NCBI GenBank assembly: GCA_001799195.1
Contig: MGSU01000238.1
Location: 12,486-32,878, forward strand
DNA: 20,393 nucleotides
From: Deltaproteobacteria bacterium RIFOXYA12_FULL_61_11
GTDB lineage: Bacteria; Bdellovibrionota_F; JAHFAK01; YA12-FULL-61-11
Reading direction: 5' to 3'
Positions 8,362 to 20,393 of the stretch are shown one piece after another. Numbering within the stretch: the first letter of the stretch is position 1; every line of letters starts with the position of its first letter. The position numbers were made by a program, and so were the translations under genes. The notes under the pieces are model-generated. The model ran no database searches and was not told the origin of the DNA. It saw only the letters and a program-made list of their open reading frames with translations.

Positions 8362-9660
8362 TCAGGAACGCACGAACTTCTCGACCCACTCGGTGGTGAC
8401 GGTCTTGGGCCGCTCGAGCGGCAGGCCGAGGGCGCGGTCCCAGATCAAGGAGGCTAGGACGCCCATGGCCCTGGAGACGCCGAAGAGCACGGTGTAGTAA
8501 TCGTACTCGTGCATGCCGTAGTGGACCAAGAGGCAGCCGGAGTGAGCGTCGACGTTCGGCCACGGGTTGGCGGCCTTGCCGGCCTTGAGCAGGATATCGG
8601 GCACCACGTCATAGAGAGTGCTCACGACCTTGAAGATCGGGTCGTTGGGCAGGTGTTTGAGGGCGAACTCGCGCTGGGCGACGTAGCGCGGGTCGGTCTT
8701 GCGCAGCACGGCATGGCCGTAACCCGGGATGACTTGACCGGAGGCGAGGGTGTCTTCGCAGAACTTGGCCAGTTGTTCCTTGGTCGGAATGCCGCCGCCG
8801 AGCTTCTCTTGCACGTCCATGATCCAGCGAAGCACTTCTTGATTTGCCAGACCGTGCAGCGGGCCGGCCAGGGCTGCCATGCCGCCGGCCAAGCTGAGAT
8901 ACGGGTCGGACAGGGTGGAGCCGACCAAGTGGCAGGTGTGGGCGCTGGCGTTGCCGCCCTCGTGATCGCAGTGCAGGACGAGGTAGAGTCTCATCAGTTC
9001 TTGGAACTGCTCGTTGTTGAAGCCGAGCATGTGCGCGAAGTTGCCGCCCCAGTCCAGATCCTTGTTCTCGTTGATGTGCTGGCCGTTCTTGTAGCTGCGG
9101 CGGTAGATGTAGGCCGCGACCTTGGGCAGCTTGGCCAGGAGGTTCATAGTGTCCTCGTAGGCTGGCTCCCACAGTTGCTTTTTGTTGATACCCTCGCGGT
9201 ACTTGCTGGCGAAGAGGGACTCGTTCTGCAGCGCGGTGATGCCGATGATGAACTGGCTCATCGGGTGCGTGTCGATGGGCATGGCGTCGAGGGTCTTTTT
9301 GATGTAGGCGGGCAGTTCCCCGCGTTTGCGCCATTCGGCCGTGATTTCATCGACGTCGGCCTTGGTCGGCACGTCACCGGTCAGGAGCAAGTAGAAGATG
9401 CCCTCGGGCAGGGGTTCTTCTTTGATTTTGGGCAGGCGCTCGCGGACCTCGGGAATGGTCATGCCGCGGAAACGGATACCCTCATTGGGGTCGAGGGCCG
9501 AGGTCTCGGTGACGATGCTCTTCACGCTGCGCATGCCGCCGTAGGCCTGCTTCACGGTGCACTCGGAGATGACCCGGTCACCGAAATCAGTGGTGAGCTT
9601 CTTCACGCGATCGCGCATCGGTTCGATCTTGCTGATGAACTTTTCCTTCAGTCGTGACAT
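8362..9660 (-). CDS. gltA: Citrate synthase, eukaryote-like type
   Basis: A 432-residue enzyme condensing oxaloacetate and acetyl-CoA to citrate, the entry step of the TCA cycle. It has the features of the mitochondrial-type enzyme: HCDHEGGNASAHT (H233, equivalent to pig H238), GPLHGLANQEVL (H269 = pig H274), PGYGHAVLRKTDPR (H316 = pig H320) and NVDAHSG (D371 = pig D375). The catalytic His-His-Asp set is therefore complete. This type is known in Geobacter-like Deltaproteobacteria and differs from the hexameric NADH-inhibited enzyme of enterics. ATG 9660 has a strong AGGAGG 8 bases upstream and a good promoter 64 bases upstream. It is probably monocistronic, since nudC has its own promoter. 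Confidence 0.96.
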   Translation of the reverse strand: MSRLKEKFISKIEPMRDRVKKLTTDFGDRVISECTVKQAYGGMRSVKSIVTETSALDPNEGIRFRGMTIPEVRERLPKIKEEPLPEGIFYLLLTGDVPTKADVDEITAEWRKRGELPAYIKKTLDAMPIDTHPMSQFIIGITALQNESLFASKYREGINKKQLWEPAYEDTMNLLAKLPKVAAYIYRRSYKNGQHINENKDLDWGGNFAHMLGFNNEQFQELMRLYLVLHCDHEGGNASAHTCHLVGSTLSDPYLSLAGGMAALAGPLHGLANQEVLRWIMDVQEKLGGGIPTKEQLAKFCEDTLASGQVIPGYGHAVLRKTDPRYVAQREFALKHLPNDPIFKVVSTLYDVVPDILLKAGKAANPWPNVDAHSGCLLVHYGMHEYDYYTVLFGVSRAMGVLASLIWDRALGLPLERPKTVTTEWVEKFVRS

Positions 9661-10033: not shown

Positions 10034-13000
10034 GTGGCTAAACATTTGATTATGTTGTTCCTGTTCCTGTTGCCACCTGGCAGTGGCAGAACAGCTCAGG
10101 ACACTTTATTCGTAGAACCCTACGCGCCGCCCCCTTGTCCTGTGCAGGTCGCTCCTCTTGAGGGAGGAGCGATGGCCGCTCTCCTGGAGCGCGGTGCGCA
10201 GACCTCGGCGCGTGGTTGCCTGGAAAGGGATGCCGACCACATTCTCAAGACGGACCTCTTTTTCCATGCATTTGTCGATCATGTTCCGGCGAGAGGTCGG
10301 GTTCTTGTTCGGGCGTTTGTCGACCTGGTGTTGGTCTCGGAGTTGAACCGGATACGCGGCGCTGAAATCTTGCTACGTTTTGCCTCGGTACTCGAAGAGA
10401 GCGGTTACTACGCCTTGAGCGCTGAGGTGATCGGCCGTTGCATAGAGGAACCAGGTATCTTCGCGGGTCCCTGTCTCCTCGCGAGGGTCCAGCGCAGAGA
10501 TCGAGCCCTGCTCGGGTTGCTCGAGGAGGCGATCGAGGTCGAAGGGCATGTCGAATTCTACATCCCCTTGGCAGAACAGTTGGATCTGCCGGGGCAGTTC
10601 GAGTATCGCCGCCACTATGTTTCCAAGCTTGACGGCAGCTTCTTGCGAAGTCGTATGACATTGATCTCGTTACTTGAAGGTGTTCCGACTGGGTTGGTGG
10701 ATCCCGGACTTGCCACCCATTTCTTCTCCATCCTCGACAGGGATGACCTCGAGCTCGAGGTGCGAGCGCAGCTCGAGAATCGGCTCGGCCGCTGGCACTG
10801 GGCAGAGGGGCGAATGGACTTGGCTCGTAGTCTGTTCGAAGCCGCGCTCACCCATCAGCCGGATGACGATGCCATGATGTATGATCTGCTCGATTTTTTA
10901 GGTCAGGACTGGATCGCCCGTCAGGATCTACTCCACTGGAGCCACCCCGATTGCAAGGAGCCACTTTCGCCCGTCAGCGGTCGGGCCTTGGCCCGCTTGT
11001 TCCTTTCTGGTCGGAGAACCGAGGCAATAGCGTGCTTGGAACGCGACGCGGAAGCCCTCGATTGGATGGGCGGCTTCTTTGATGAGCTTCTCGATCACTT
11101 GCCGCTCATGCCGAGCGTGGTCCAGGCGTTCGTAGATCTTGTCAGGTCTACCCAGCTCCCCCCCGAACTCACTTGGCGCATGCTTCAAGGTTTTTCCTCA
11201 GTGCTCCGCCAACTCGGAGAGCAACGCGCCAGCCGATCCATCATGTTCTCCTGTCTGGCAGACCTTCACCTCCTGGCCAGCGGTTGTCTGGAACCCCTGG
11301 TCATGGAGGGATCTCCCCAGTTGCGGGGCCTGCTCGAACAGTCGGCAGTATGCGAAGGACACCCAGACATCCTCGTCCGTCTGGCTGCTCATTTCGATCC
11401 GCCCGATACGTTGGTTTTGAGGCGCCGTTACTTCTTACTGTTCGATACCCCCAGCGACCTAGAGCAGATGGCCATGGTCTCGCTCCTAGACGGGCTTTCT
11501 GGGGAGGATCTCGATTCGGTCCTGGTCGCGCGATTGTCGGAGTTGCTCCGAACACCCACGCTTGGTACGGCGGCACTGGGGAGGTTCGAACACCTGCTCG
11601 GACAGTGGTATCGACTGCACGGTGATATCGACAAGGCCTTGTCTCTTTTGGTGTCTTCCGTTCTTCATGCCCCGGGTGATTTTAGCTCTCTCTTCGACCT
11701 GTTCAGCCTGGCCAGTCAGCGGCCTCCGGTCGAACGCTGGACCGAGGAACCGCTGAGTGCCTTCCTGCAGGTACCGCGCAGGGTCGACGATCCGGAATTA
11801 GTCCCGGCCATCGAGATGCTCGCCTTCCACCACCCCCCCCATGGAGCGAGGTTGGCTCTGACCTGCCTCGAGGCTCACCCGAAGCACTTCGGCTGCCTGC
11901 GAGAGCTATTTCTCCTGGCCCGACAGCATGGTCCCCTCTCGCTCCTGCAACGGGCGGAACGGCATGTGAGAGAGAAGCTCGAGCACGATGAGACACTCTT
12001 CGAGTTGCTGCTGGGACTGGGAGAAGTGGAGCTGGCCGTCGAGCTGACGGCAGGACCGGCCTTCGCGGCCGCTCCGGTGGGATCTAAGGCTGCGATGTTG
12101 CGGCGGCTCGCCCAGGCCCAGCGCGATGCCCGACGTCCCCTCGACCGCAGTCGGCTTGTTCCTGGGGCTACCTCCAAGACCGTGATGGCCGACGCCGGCA
12201 CCGAGCCGCCTCCTCCGAACATCCTCTTCGTGACCGTCGACGCGTTGAACTACCGCCACCTCGGCCACGCTGGTTACCAGCGGCAGACTACCCCGGCCCT
12301 TGATCGCTTCGCCCGGCAAGCAGTGGTCTTCGAACGCGCGTATTCACCAGCTCCGGCGACCCTCCCGGCGGGCGTGGTCTTTATTACCGGACGCTATCTC
12401 CAGGTCATTTCCAGCCCGGACATGGGTAATCTGCTCGATCAGAGCTACACCACCATGGCCGAGTACCTCCGTGCGGCCGGCTATCGCACGGTCAGCATCG
12501 TCGGGAACCACTTTTTCGGCCGCGGTACCGGCTTCGAACAGGGGTTCGACGCGGTCCACGACCAGGACCTCGGGGCCCGCCGGATGGTTTCCCTGGCCCT
12601 GAAGAACCTGGTGCAGGCCGAACACGGCCGGCCCCTCTTCCTGTGGATGCACCTCTTCGACCCGCATGCACCCTATACCCCACCGTTCGGGAACACGCTC
12701 GATACAAGGTATTATCCACCGTGGATCCCGGCCACGGGGCGAGGCAGACCCGCTGAACACGCCGGTCCTCCGATGCTGCCCCTGGCTCCGACCGATCTTC
12801 CCTTCCTCAGCTTCGGCTCATACGACGGGGTCCACGATAGCCTGCGCTGGTATTTCGACCGGTACGACGAGGAAATCCTCTCCACCGATCGTGCCCTGGC
12901 CCCGCTGCTCGACTGGGTGTTGGCCTCCCGGAACACGATCCTCGTCTTTAGTGCCGATCACGGCGAATCCATGGGGGAACACAATTTCTGGTTCGGGCAC

Positions 13001-17632: not shown

Positions 17633-17747
17633 TGCGTGGAGAAGGTCATGGTGCGTCGTCTTTCCGGTATTGGGGATCCTTGCTTGCCGCTGAATCGACG
17701 CGATGGTACTCTTGCCGGCATGAAGAAAGCGGTTGGGAGAGCGGGGT

Positions 17748-18500
17748 GTGAAAACCGAGTCCGGCTTGGGAATTTTCCGAGGTCGTGCTGCCACGATCAA
17801 AGCATGGAAGACGATTCGCGACCTGCGACCTGATATTCCTTACGATGAAATCGTCCTAACCTTCGACGTGGATGGGGCCCCAGACGAGGTCATCCAATAC
17901 ACAGTGGACCTCGTTCGCGAACACGGTGCCCGCGCGACCTTCTTCGCCACTCACGCCAGCCCGCTGCTCCGCGACCTGGCAGAATCACGCGACCTCGAGG
18001 TCGGCATCCACCCCAACTACTTCTCTAGTACCGACTTCGAACGGCAAGTCGACGAGCTCATGGCCTGCTATCCCAGAGCTACCAGCATTCGCGGACATGG
18101 CCTGTACATCTCGACCGCTATTCAGGCTCTCTACGCGGCCAAAGGGATCACCCATTGCGTGGATGCGATCCTGCCCTACCACCCGGGGTTACGCCCGGTG
18201 TGGCGATTTACCAGGGGAGGGTTGATCCTGGTTCCCTATTTTTGGGAAGACGGGCACGCACTCTGGTACCTCGATCCTCCCGAATACCACCTCGACCCTG
18301 CCGCTTTCCCGACTGGGCTCAAGGTGTGCAACTTCCATCCGGTGCTCGTGTTCACCAACACTTCGGATTATCGTCTCTACGAGCAGCGCATCCGCCCGGA
18401 CACCAAAGACGTCGCGGCCCTCCGAGCCCTGCGCGGGGAGCGTGGCGCCGCCACGATGCTGCGCTCGCTGCTGAGCGGACTAACCAAAAGCCCGAGGTAA
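17748..18500 (+). CDS. Polysaccharide deacetylase, WbmS-like
   Basis: 250 residues of the carbohydrate esterase 4/NodB-homology type. The strongest resemblance is to the WbmS group named from a Bordetella O-antigen locus. Motif one is LTFDVDGAPDE (D40, D42). Motif two is GIHPNYFS (H88), where the usual H-S/T-x-x-H keeps only the first His. Motif three is IRGHGLY, and PYFWEDG comes later. Such enzymes remove acetyl groups from N-acetyl sugars in surface polysaccharides. There is no signal peptide, so it would act in the cytoplasm on a precursor. GTG 17748 is preferred over the TTG at 17733 because GGGAG lies 8 bases upstream. It stands alone between two spacers and is bracketed by the degenerate repeats. 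Confidence 0.82.
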   Translation: MKTESGLGIFRGRAATIKAWKTIRDLRPDIPYDEIVLTFDVDGAPDEVIQYTVDLVREHGARATFFATHASPLLRDLAESRDLEVGIHPNYFSSTDFERQVDELMACYPRATSIRGHGLYISTAIQALYAAKGITHCVDAILPYHPGLRPVWRFTRGGLILVPYFWEDGHALWYLDPPEYHLDPAAFPTGLKVCNFHPVLVFTNTSDYRLYEQRIRPDTKDVAALRALRGERGAATMLRSLLSGLTKSPR

Positions 18501-18539: not shown

Positions 18540-18713
18540 ATCAGGGTTTCGACCGGCGGGTTGTTGCAGGTGGGATGGGCGATCCCGCCGATCGACCTCC
18601 TTGCCCGAACAGGGCGTACCACGGCGGGACACTCGGTGCATCTTCTTTCCGACTTGGGACTCCACTACTTGCAGCCAAACCTCTTGGGGAAGCGACCGTA
18701 GAAATTATGTATC

Positions 18714-18720
18714 AGGAGGT
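18714..18720 (+). promoter_or_regulatory. Exceptionally strong Shine-Dalgarno
   Basis: AGGAGGT lies 9 bases upstream of ATG 18730 and is the best match to the 16S anti-Shine-Dalgarno in the window. It is the main reason for treating 18730 as a real translation start. The bases just before it, GTATCA, repeat a half-site of the palindrome inside the ORF, so folding could hide it. Confidence 0.6.
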
Positions 18721-18729
18721 GAGTATCCC

Positions 18730-18813
18730 ATGAGAAAGGTTGATACTAATAATGTATCAACCCCATGTCCTGGACTTCGGAGCAACCCGCGAGCTTCCCG
18801 CCGCATCCATTGA
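18730..18813 (+). CDS. Short peptide ORF (27 aa), possible RiPP precursor or leader peptide
   Basis: A 27-codon ORF starting MRKVDTNN and ending NPRASRRIH, with a single Cys at residue 13 (STPCPGLR). Evidence for translation is the optimal Shine-Dalgarno 9 bases upstream and its place 57 bases ahead of a nucleotidyltransferase gene. Codon use is AT-richer than in neighbouring genes. The first codons are spanned by a perfect 9-bp palindrome. The +1 frame from 18752 has GC-rich third positions and reads MYQPHVLDFGATREL, which looks more like a modified-peptide leader, so the annotated frame may be affected by a single-base change. It may be a leader peptide, a precursor or spurious; no family is recognised. 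Confidence 0.35.
   Translation: MRKVDTNNVSTPCPGLRSNPRASRRIH
18738..18762. repeat. Perfect 9-bp palindrome with 7-base spacer
   Basis: GGTTGATAC (18738-18746), spacer TAATAAT, then GTATCAACC (18754-18762), an exact inverted repeat. It could be a regulator operator or an mRNA hairpin starting 8 bases after the ATG. A third half-site, GTATCA, lies at 18708-18713 beside the Shine-Dalgarno and could pair with the left arm instead. The AT-rich character stands out in this GC-rich block. Confidence 0.65.
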
Positions 18814-18870
18814 CAAGGTCCGGCGGAGCGTGCAACCTGCGCGCCGGATGATCGTTTTGCCGGGAACGCG

Positions 18871-20199
18871 ATGCACCAACGCTCCGCCAGCGTGCTCTGT
18901 CTTCTCTGCAAGGCCGAGCCGACCTCCGAGGAAGAGGCCGACCTCGGTCGGAGGCTTGCCGAGTTGCGGCCGGCCGAGTGGGCGGAGCTTGTGCGCTTGG
19001 CCGAGCTGAACGCGGTCGTGCCTTGGGTTACCAAACGGTTGCGCATCCTGTTGCCCCGAGCCGAGGCTTTCTTGCCCCGGGTCTTCGTCGAAGCGGCGGA
19101 GCGGGCGTCGGTCGCGGGGAGCGCGCGGCTCGTCCAGGCGGCGGTTCTGGCCAAGCGCTTCGACGAGGCTGGGATACCGCTGATCGTGCTCAAGGGGGGG
19201 CTCTTCGCGGGCGAGTTCTATCGCGACCCGGGCTACAAGAAGATGAACGACGTGGACCTCCTGGTGCATCCCGACCACGTGGCCGCGGGGCTTGCGTTGT
19301 TCAAGGAGTTGGGGCTCCTCTCCATCGGCGATCTGTTCGGTACCTATCAGCCCGGGGCCACGACCCATCATACGCCGCCCTTCATCAGCCCGGACCTCGC
19401 CCTGGTCACCGGCTTGCACTGGGACCTCGTCTCTCCCCACTGCCGGGTGCGGACCGACCTCGTCGGCTTGCACTCCCGGCTGGTACGAACCGTCCTCGGC
19501 GAGGCTCCGGTGTGGCGTATGTCCTGGGAAGACAACCTGTTCCATCTCTGCATCCACCTGCCCTATTACAAATTGGGTTTGCGCGAACTGGCCGATGTCT
19601 CCAACCTCGTTTTACACGCCGGGACGGGCTTCGACTGGGACCTCTTCTCCCACCTCGTGGCCCGGGGCCGGGCCGAGGACGACGTCTACCGCTGCTTGAC
19701 CCTGGCCGATCGACTCCTGCCCTTCGCTCCACCCGGCGACCTCCTACGGCGTTGCCGCCGGCAGGCTTCGGCGCTCACCAGGGCCGACACCGAACGCCGC
19801 CGCCTCGACCTCTCCCTGCTCTTGCACTCGCGCAGCGCCCATCTGGCCAAGATAGAGAAGGCCTTCGTGGTGTTCCGCTTGGCCGAGCAGTACCGCGAGC
19901 GCTCGCTCGCCTATCTCGGTATGTGGTTGCCGGCGTTGTATCCTCCTCGCCGCGAACTGGAACGCATCGCTGCCCTGCCTCCCTGGGCCTCGCCCCTGAG
20001 GCGTCTCGGCGCCAGACTGCGGATGCCCTTCCTGCTGTGGAGAGCCCTCGGTCGGGACCACGGCCGCCTCGCCCTGGGGGTGGTCACCGCGCGGAATTTC
20101 CTGGACCTCGTGGGCGCGACTCTCGCGTGGCCCCTGAGGCCGCCGGGACGTTCACTTCGCAAGCATCCTCATATCGGTGTGCTCGAGAGGTTGGAATGA
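18871..20199 (+). CDS. Uncharacterised nucleotidyltransferase family protein (PF14907-like)
   Basis: 442 residues, cytoplasmic. The central part shows the minimal nucleotidyltransferase fold: IPLIVLKGG (residues 102-110), then YKKMNDVDLLV with the metal-binding D127 and D129. LHWDLVS and EDNLFHLCIHLPYYK follow, as in the NTP_transf_5 group. The C-terminal 150 residues are Arg-rich and helical. Members of this family occur in exopolysaccharide loci and in some lasso-peptide clusters, where a relative (PsmN of the pseudomycoidin cluster) phosphorylates or glycosylates the peptide. The substrate here is unknown. ATG 18871 is the first possible start after the in-frame stop of the short ORF; its ribosome site (GGGA) is weak, so it may rely on translation from upstream. 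Its stop overlaps the next gene (ATGA). Confidence 0.82.
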   Translation: MHQRSASVLCLLCKAEPTSEEEADLGRRLAELRPAEWAELVRLAELNAVVPWVTKRLRILLPRAEAFLPRVFVEAAERASVAGSARLVQAAVLAKRFDEAGIPLIVLKGGLFAGEFYRDPGYKKMNDVDLLVHPDHVAAGLALFKELGLLSIGDLFGTYQPGATTHHTPPFISPDLALVTGLHWDLVSPHCRVRTDLVGLHSRLVRTVLGEAPVWRMSWEDNLFHLCIHLPYYKLGLRELADVSNLVLHAGTGFDWDLFSHLVARGRAEDDVYRCLTLADRLLPFAPPGDLLRRCRRQASALTRADTERRRLDLSLLLHSRSAHLAKIEKAFVVFRLAEQYRERSLAYLGMWLPALYPPRRELERIAALPPWASPLRRLGARLRMPFLLWRALGRDHGRLALGVVTARNFLDLVGATLAWPLRPPGRSLRKHPHIGVLERLE

Positions 20200-20393
20200 C
20201 CGGACTGCTGCAGCGCTTGCGGCCGGACACGGATCCAGCCTCGTGCGGGGGGAAAGCCAAGAACCTCCTCGCCCTGCCGGCCTCGGCCGTTCCCCCGGGA
20301 TGGCATTCGCCGCTCGAACGGATCGAGGCCCTGCTCCTGGGGGTACCTGGTTGGAACGACCTCCTCGAGGCGCGGCGCTGGCATTCCGGCGAC
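20196..20393 (+). CDS. Probable PEP-synthase/PPDK N-terminal-like protein, partial
   Basis: Only the first 66 codons are inside the window. The visible part contains CGGKAKNLLAL followed by AVPPGWHSPLE, resembling the GGKxxNL...VPPG pattern at the start of the ATP-grasp nucleotide-binding domain of PEP synthase, pyruvate phosphate dikinase and rifampin phosphotransferase-like enzymes. It begins with the 4-base ATGA overlap on the nucleotidyltransferase stop, so the two are co-translated and probably work together. The assignment rests on a short motif; an unrelated protein is possible. Confidence 0.5.
   Translation, partial: MTGLLQRLRPDTDPASCGGKAKNLLALPASAVPPGWHSPLERIEALLLGVPGWNDLLEARRWHSGD

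Follow-up and report, generated by a model that had tools for sequence, protein, structure and literature searches.

The window, the whole stretch of 20,393 nucleotides analysed here from Deltaproteobacteria bacterium RIFOXYA12_FULL_61_11, corresponds to positions 12486–32878 of a contig of 32,878 bases (hereafter, C238) and reaches its exact end. A nucleotidyltransferase gene at this end overlaps a second frame similar to phosphoenolpyruvate (PEP) synthase, of which 66 codons are present before contig and window stop together. The features of the locus are as follows.

18714–18719, plus strand: AGGAGG, Shine-Dalgarno-like site of the 27-codon ORF
18730–18813, plus strand: 27-codon ORF with a strong Shine-Dalgarno sequence; unconserved and probably outside the system
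18738–18762: perfect palindrome GGTTGATAC-N7-GTATCAACC, 25 bp (9+7+9), upstream of the nucleotidyltransferase gene and overlapping the small ORF
18871–20199, plus strand: PF14907 (NTP_transf_5) nucleotidyltransferase, 442 amino acids, with a predicted Pol-beta fold and Gly181 at the putative third-carboxylate position
20196–20393, plus strand: first 66 codons of a dikinase resembling rifampin phosphotransferase (RPH) and PEP synthase; ATGA overlap with the preceding gene, open at the contig end
Contig C174, L115:9921–12059, minus strand: C-terminal part of a dikinase fused to a HAD domain, the probable continuation of the preceding frame

A gene for a WbmS-like polysaccharide deacetylase (17733–18500) lies upstream of the nucleotidyltransferase gene. 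The first-pass annotation had drawn attention to a short ORF with an optimal ribosome site. The ORF and its AGGAGG are indeed present, but the meaning attached to them is not supported: a comparable small ORF (ATG with Shine-Dalgarno) is absent from the 160 bases upstream of the orthologous gene in all 11 relatives described below, L043 having only TTG-initiated frames there, and the window contains, over both strands, more than 30 instances of GGAGG with a start codon 4–10 bases further on. The N-termini of the relatives align with the window protein from the start at 18871, which shows that the small ORF did not once extend this protein, and it is best regarded as a chance occurrence. A longer, out-of-frame ORF (18752–19009) begins MYQPHVLDFGATREL, which resembles a lasso leader; it was not seen upstream of the relatives.

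The palindrome may be an operator or an RNA hairpin. As a regulon marker it was uninformative, with no second exact copy anywhere in the genome; with two mismatches allowed, four further sites were returned, as against two for the reversed control, and none of the four is on C170, C174 or C213, the contigs that carry the companion genes discussed below.

The nucleotidyltransferase and its clade

The assignment to PF14907 and the ATGA overlap (20196–20199) with a PEP-synthase-like gene, both proposed at the outset, were borne out. The Pfam match covers residues 34–283 with an E-value of 1.8e-34 and 119.9 bits, against a gathering score of 31.2. The AlphaFold model (pLDDT 92.7) was matched by Foldseek to ANT(2'')-Ia and LnuA with probability 1.00, but with an E-value of 7e-3 at best; structural comparison (VIA) returned MenT1 (Z 12.7) and ANT(2'')-Ia (Z 11.7), and a weak similarity in fold to FKRP (Z 7.5). 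The model thus has a Pol-beta nucleotidyltransferase fold.

Only two genomes of the same phylum are in the whole-genome set, and the best matches among 386 diverse genomes reach at most 31% identity. Relatives were collected from a scan of GTDB contigs with a two-row alignment, an alignment of 13 diverse sequences being too divergent for scanning. Eleven were found (L037–L047), with 27–44% identity over most of the protein, in Bdellovibrionota, Myxococcota, Legionella and Sericytochromatia; a plasmid search gave one distant match. In a quick tree of 73 PF14907 sequences the window protein and the 11 relatives form one clade (SH-aLRT 100), in which L037 is the sister of the window sequence (support 93). 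Nucleotidyltransferases of pseudomycoidin-type lasso clusters belong to the same Pfam family, PF14907. The window clade is separate from these and from other PF14907 clusters, with a gene context of its own and an apparent loss in the active site.

The G..DxD motif is retained in the window protein (G109, D127 and D129). Position 181 is Gly in 11 of the 12 clade members and Ser in the remaining one, whereas 60 of the 61 PF14907 sequences outside the clade have Glu or Asp there. From the motif, and from the location of this column on the modelled strand beside the DxD strand, we read position 181 as the third catalytic carboxylate. Of the three carboxylates expected in an active Pol-beta nucleotidyltransferase, the window protein would thus lack the third. 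The clade as a whole appears to have lost it, and nucleotide transfer by these proteins is putative. The neighbouring His183, conserved in 11 of 12 members, may substitute. The scan pattern contains YKKMND, so that selection by the scan accounts in part for the conservation of this stretch among clade members, which is excluded from the evidence; position 181 lies outside both scan patterns. Neither this protein nor the dikinase and ThiL-like protein described below had a match in PADLOC.

The genome has two further PF14907 genes. One (L005:10817–14295, on C338, a contig other than that of the window) is immediately followed by genes for a PqqD-radical SAM-SPASM protein and a further radical SAM-SPASM protein; this context is RiPP-like, with no precursor identified. 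The other (L006:13708–19947, on C316) has three radical SAM genes around it, and two of these encode a B12-binding domain.

A shared gene neighbourhood and its counterpart in the genome of the window

Recurring families were determined by all-against-all comparison and profile searches of the loci. A PEP-synthase/rifampin-phosphotransferase-like dikinase is present at 10 of 11 clade loci and at none of 59 other PF14907 loci; at the sole exception, L041, the contig ends behind the nucleotidyltransferase gene. The corresponding Fisher p of 2.8e-11, uncorrected for relatedness, is indicative only, since the flanks of many control loci are shorter and genomes that are related do not count as independent. 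The pairing of a nucleotidyltransferase with a phosphotransferase-like partner, singled out in the first-pass annotation, is thus conserved and specific to the clade; no comparable small ORF accompanies it in the 11 relatives. The dikinase gene directly follows at seven loci (L037, L040, L042, L043 and L044–L046), and the two genes overlap by ATGA or GTGA in the window, L040, L042 and L043. The dikinases of L038 and L039 are divergent, are encoded on the opposite strand and more closely resemble L010, a second PEP-synthase-like protein from the window's genome, at 36% identity.

An alpha-oxoamine synthase resembling serine palmitoyltransferase (hereafter, AOS and SPT) is likewise found at 10 of 11 clade loci, in one case as a fragment. 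The other families are a DAGK-like lipid kinase (9 loci), a first thymidylate-kinase-like protein (TMK-like A, 8), a HAD protein (7), a ThiL/AIRS-like kinase (6), a second thymidylate-kinase-like protein (TMK-like B, 6), an SDR/epimerase (6 by all-against-all comparison, 5 by profile search) and a class III aminotransferase fused to an acyl-ACP-reductase-like domain (AT-III fusion, 3). Members of the dikinase, AOS, TMK and DAGK families are absent from the 59 other PF14907 loci, where weak SDR matches and one weak AIRS match were seen. The cluster is not a single operon in every genome. Radical SAM genes occur at two clade loci only (L037 and L047). In L037 (4244–7946), from a member of the Bdellovibrionales, two acyl-CoA dehydrogenase genes and a sulfotransferase gene lie just before the nucleotidyltransferase gene.

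The remainder of the locus had been expected to the right of the window, where the contig in fact ends; a probable continuation was located on C174, through a DAGK profile search of the same genome. The right end of C174 opens inside a dikinase, at the position of residue 354 of the L037 protein, and the frame runs to the dikinase end and its fused HAD domain. It is followed by genes for a TMK-like kinase, a DAGK and a ThiL-like kinase, nearly in the order of L037; a run of N breaks the DAGK gene. Alone, the 66-residue start on C238 (GGKAKNLLAL..VPPGW) has no Pfam or PDB match, and a search for relatives with it gave nothing useful. Aligned to the N-terminal region of a different PEP-synthase-like protein encoded in the genome, it scored 55, where the best of 300 shuffles reached 45; against the orthologous dikinases it was not clear of shuffles. 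Taken together, the shuffle test and the C-terminal dikinase part that ends C174 make its PEP-synthase-like identity very likely. The dikinase would then have been sequenced in two parts, residues 1–66 and from about 354 onwards, and we infer that C238 and C174 are adjacent, with about 0.86 kb missing between them. C243 and C26 also carry dikinase-like genes, but each of these has N-terminal and ATP-binding parts of its own and is a separate gene.

Beside this part, C174 continues with genes on the opposite strand for a fatty-acyl-AMP ligase (FAAL), an ACP and a GT2 glycosyltransferase; it also carries an FkbM methyltransferase gene. FAAL and ACP were not found at the loci of the relatives. 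A search of the window's genome for TMK-like B, run without a positive control, gave no match.

With Pfam matches to PPDK_N and PEP-utilizers only, the L037 dikinase is of the RPH-like/PEP-synthase-like type that has no PEP/pyruvate barrel. The model of the L042 dikinase matches full-length rifampin phosphotransferase (E 1.9e-43), with which it shares ATP-binding, central and C-terminal phosphohistidine swivel domains, and the swivel His lies within SH[AG] in 10 of 10 dikinases examined. The dikinase is not RPH proper: identity in the structural alignment is about 20%, and the NCBIfam RPH model gives 198 bits against a cut-off of 999. PigC/RedH is also among the NCBIfam matches, below the PEP-synthase and RPH models. 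Unlike RPH, the Bdellovibrio dikinases (L044:9373–10929, L045:3554–5092 and L046:9371–10909; 512–518 amino acids) lack the ATP-binding PPDK_N domain and keep the phosphohistidine domain.

The closest PDB match of the AOS is serine palmitoyltransferase (1.5e-85). The L042 protein scores 357 bits against the NCBIfam model for that enzyme (cut-off 640); since the AOS falls below every curated NCBIfam cut-off, serine as its amino acid is putative. The AOS gene of the window's genome, on C170, is cut by the contig end and its product is 42–48% identical to those of the clade; it was chosen over a full-length SPT-like gene on C128 (31–32%). The AT-III fusion of this genome, on C213, has 37% identity to that of L037. 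The C-terminal domain of the fusion matches PigE (6.4e-16) and cyanobacterial acyl-ACP reductase (2.4e-4), and PigE is its best NCBIfam model, at 267.8 bits against a cut-off of 850. The order of the domains is the reverse of that in PigE, so that neither architecture nor score identifies a PigE/TamH protein.

Proposed pathway and alternative readings

The window closes on the first genes of a conserved biosynthetic cluster of ten-odd genes, shared with relatives from Bdellovibrio, Legionella and the myxobacteria. It looks like a cluster for a phosphorylated lipid-like compound rather than for a modified peptide. The AOS, AT-III fusion and dikinase, together with FAAL and ACP, point to acyl chemistry, amine formation and several phosphorylations. 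We favour, with a probability of roughly 0.6, a lipid-type pathway in which an acyl-derived amine or amino-ketone receives a phosphorylated head on which the nucleotidyltransferase acts. A fatty acyl chain would be activated on the ACP and converted by the AOS, the reductase-aminotransferase or both to a long-chain amine or amino-ketone, and the polar end would then be phosphorylated. The dikinase, using ATP via a phosphohistidine, could phosphorylate a hydroxyl, as rifampin phosphotransferase does, or activate a group for condensation in the manner of PigC. Further phosphates might be added by the lipid kinase and by the TMK-like and ThiL-like kinases, and the putative nucleotidyltransferase could move a nucleotide or NDP-activated group onto the head. 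The overlap of its coding sequence with that of the dikinase suggests successive or coupled steps. Several observations weigh against this pathway: three to four kinase families plus a dikinase exceed the needs of a simple phospholipid head; FAAL and ACP are missing from the loci of the relatives; the AOS scores fall short of the curated cut-offs; and the cluster is not one operon everywhere, its parts in the window's genome being scattered over contigs whose adjacency is inferred.

The same enzyme types assemble prodiginine- and tambjamine-like alkaloids, where an ATP-dependent condensing dikinase (PigC/TamQ) joins amine and carbonyl halves supplied by a PigH-like AOS and a PigE/TamH-like reductase-aminotransferase. 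The tam pathway combines an AMP ligase (TamA), a dehydrogenase (TamT), TamH, TamD/PigH and TamQ/PigC (PMC6667630), and the parallel with its fatty-amine branch (TamA, TamT, TamH and TamQ; PMC6667630) is noteworthy. The reductase-like domain and top NCBIfam model of the AT-III fusion, and the PigC/RedH matches of the dikinase, agree with such a product. However, the reversed fusion, the better scores of the dikinase to PEP-synthase and RPH models, and the absence from the shared families of the PCP, prolyl-AMP ligase and ketosynthase set for pyrrole formation all argue against it, and the extra kinases, the nucleotidyltransferase and the HAD protein would be left without a role; we regard an alkaloid of this kind as unlikely. 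Tailoring of a cell-surface glycan, capsule or wall polymer, with nucleotidyltransferase and dikinase decorating a polysaccharide, is less probable still. The upstream deacetylase, the GT2 and FkbM genes of C174 and the faint resemblance to FKRP would fit it, but none of these three genes recurs at orthologous loci, where AOS, lipid kinase, other kinases and HAD form the recurring set. The glycan cassette first envisaged thus reduces to one GT2 gene on C174, glycosyltransferases not being among the families common to the relatives.

The first-pass annotation had leaned towards peptide modification, by which the small ORF would encode a RiPP precursor, nucleotidylated and phosphorylated as in pseudomycoidin-type lasso peptides. 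Nucleotidyltransferase genes are present in some Firmicutes lasso clusters (PMC8498205), and the ORF at 18752 has its lasso-leader-like start. Reading it as a lasso precursor requires a frameshift, however, and the ORF overlaps the nucleotidyltransferase gene. No precursor is conserved at the 11 orthologous loci; lasso B/C, PqqD, asparagine-synthetase-like and HPr-kinase-like genes do not recur, and radical SAM genes are confined to the two loci already named. Neither a PqqD/B protease nor an asparagine-synthetase-like cyclase is among the Pfam matches of the L037 neighbourhood or the C174 part, although the window's genome still has contig gaps. The conserved neighbours are acyl and lipid enzymes, and because these lipid and kinase genes both recur at the relatives and are present in the window's own genome, the peptide reading fails; we consider it highly improbable. 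A small ORF beside a PF14907 gene is insufficient to call a peptide cluster.

For the favoured lipid-type pathway, the nearest described counterpart in logic is a phosphosphingolipid locus of Caulobacter, whose ceramide kinase, CpgB, is DAGK-like. At this CPG/CPG2 locus (spt, cpgA–D) an SPT-type synthase, a ceramide kinase and nucleotidyltransferases likewise yield a phosphorylated sphingolipid head (PMC11324152, PMC12275187). The head-group enzyme families differ: the nucleotidyltransferases are described as CofC-like, LicD-like or sugar-phosphate-cytidylyltransferase-like, not as PF14907, and searches of these two papers returned no PEP-synthase-like or thymidylate-kinase-like gene (PMC11324152, PMC12275187).

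The gene set consists of ordinary parts that recur together, with predicted functions throughout. Literature searches (open-licence papers) found no described system with this set, in keeping with the initial impression of an unusual pair not recognised as a described system. It is conceivable, and we suggest it tentatively, that the product belongs to a hitherto undescribed class of phosphorylated amino-lipids (or lipo-alkaloids) in several phyla, including predatory bacteria and Legionella. Its head group would be built jointly by an RPH-like dikinase and a PF14907 enzyme that lacks the third carboxylate. Through this association a dikinase and a nucleotidyltransferase family that is still largely uncharacterised would gain a place in a lipid-type pathway that recurs in distant phyla, and because Bdellovibrio- and Legionella-related bacteria carry it, gene deletion combined with lipidomics could reveal the product and assign several enzymes at once.

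Elsewhere in the window, a citrate synthase gene is encoded on the minus strand (8362–9660), and a 58-bp segment (18545–18602) has copies on three other contigs, 76–84% identical, and is perhaps a mobile-element remnant.
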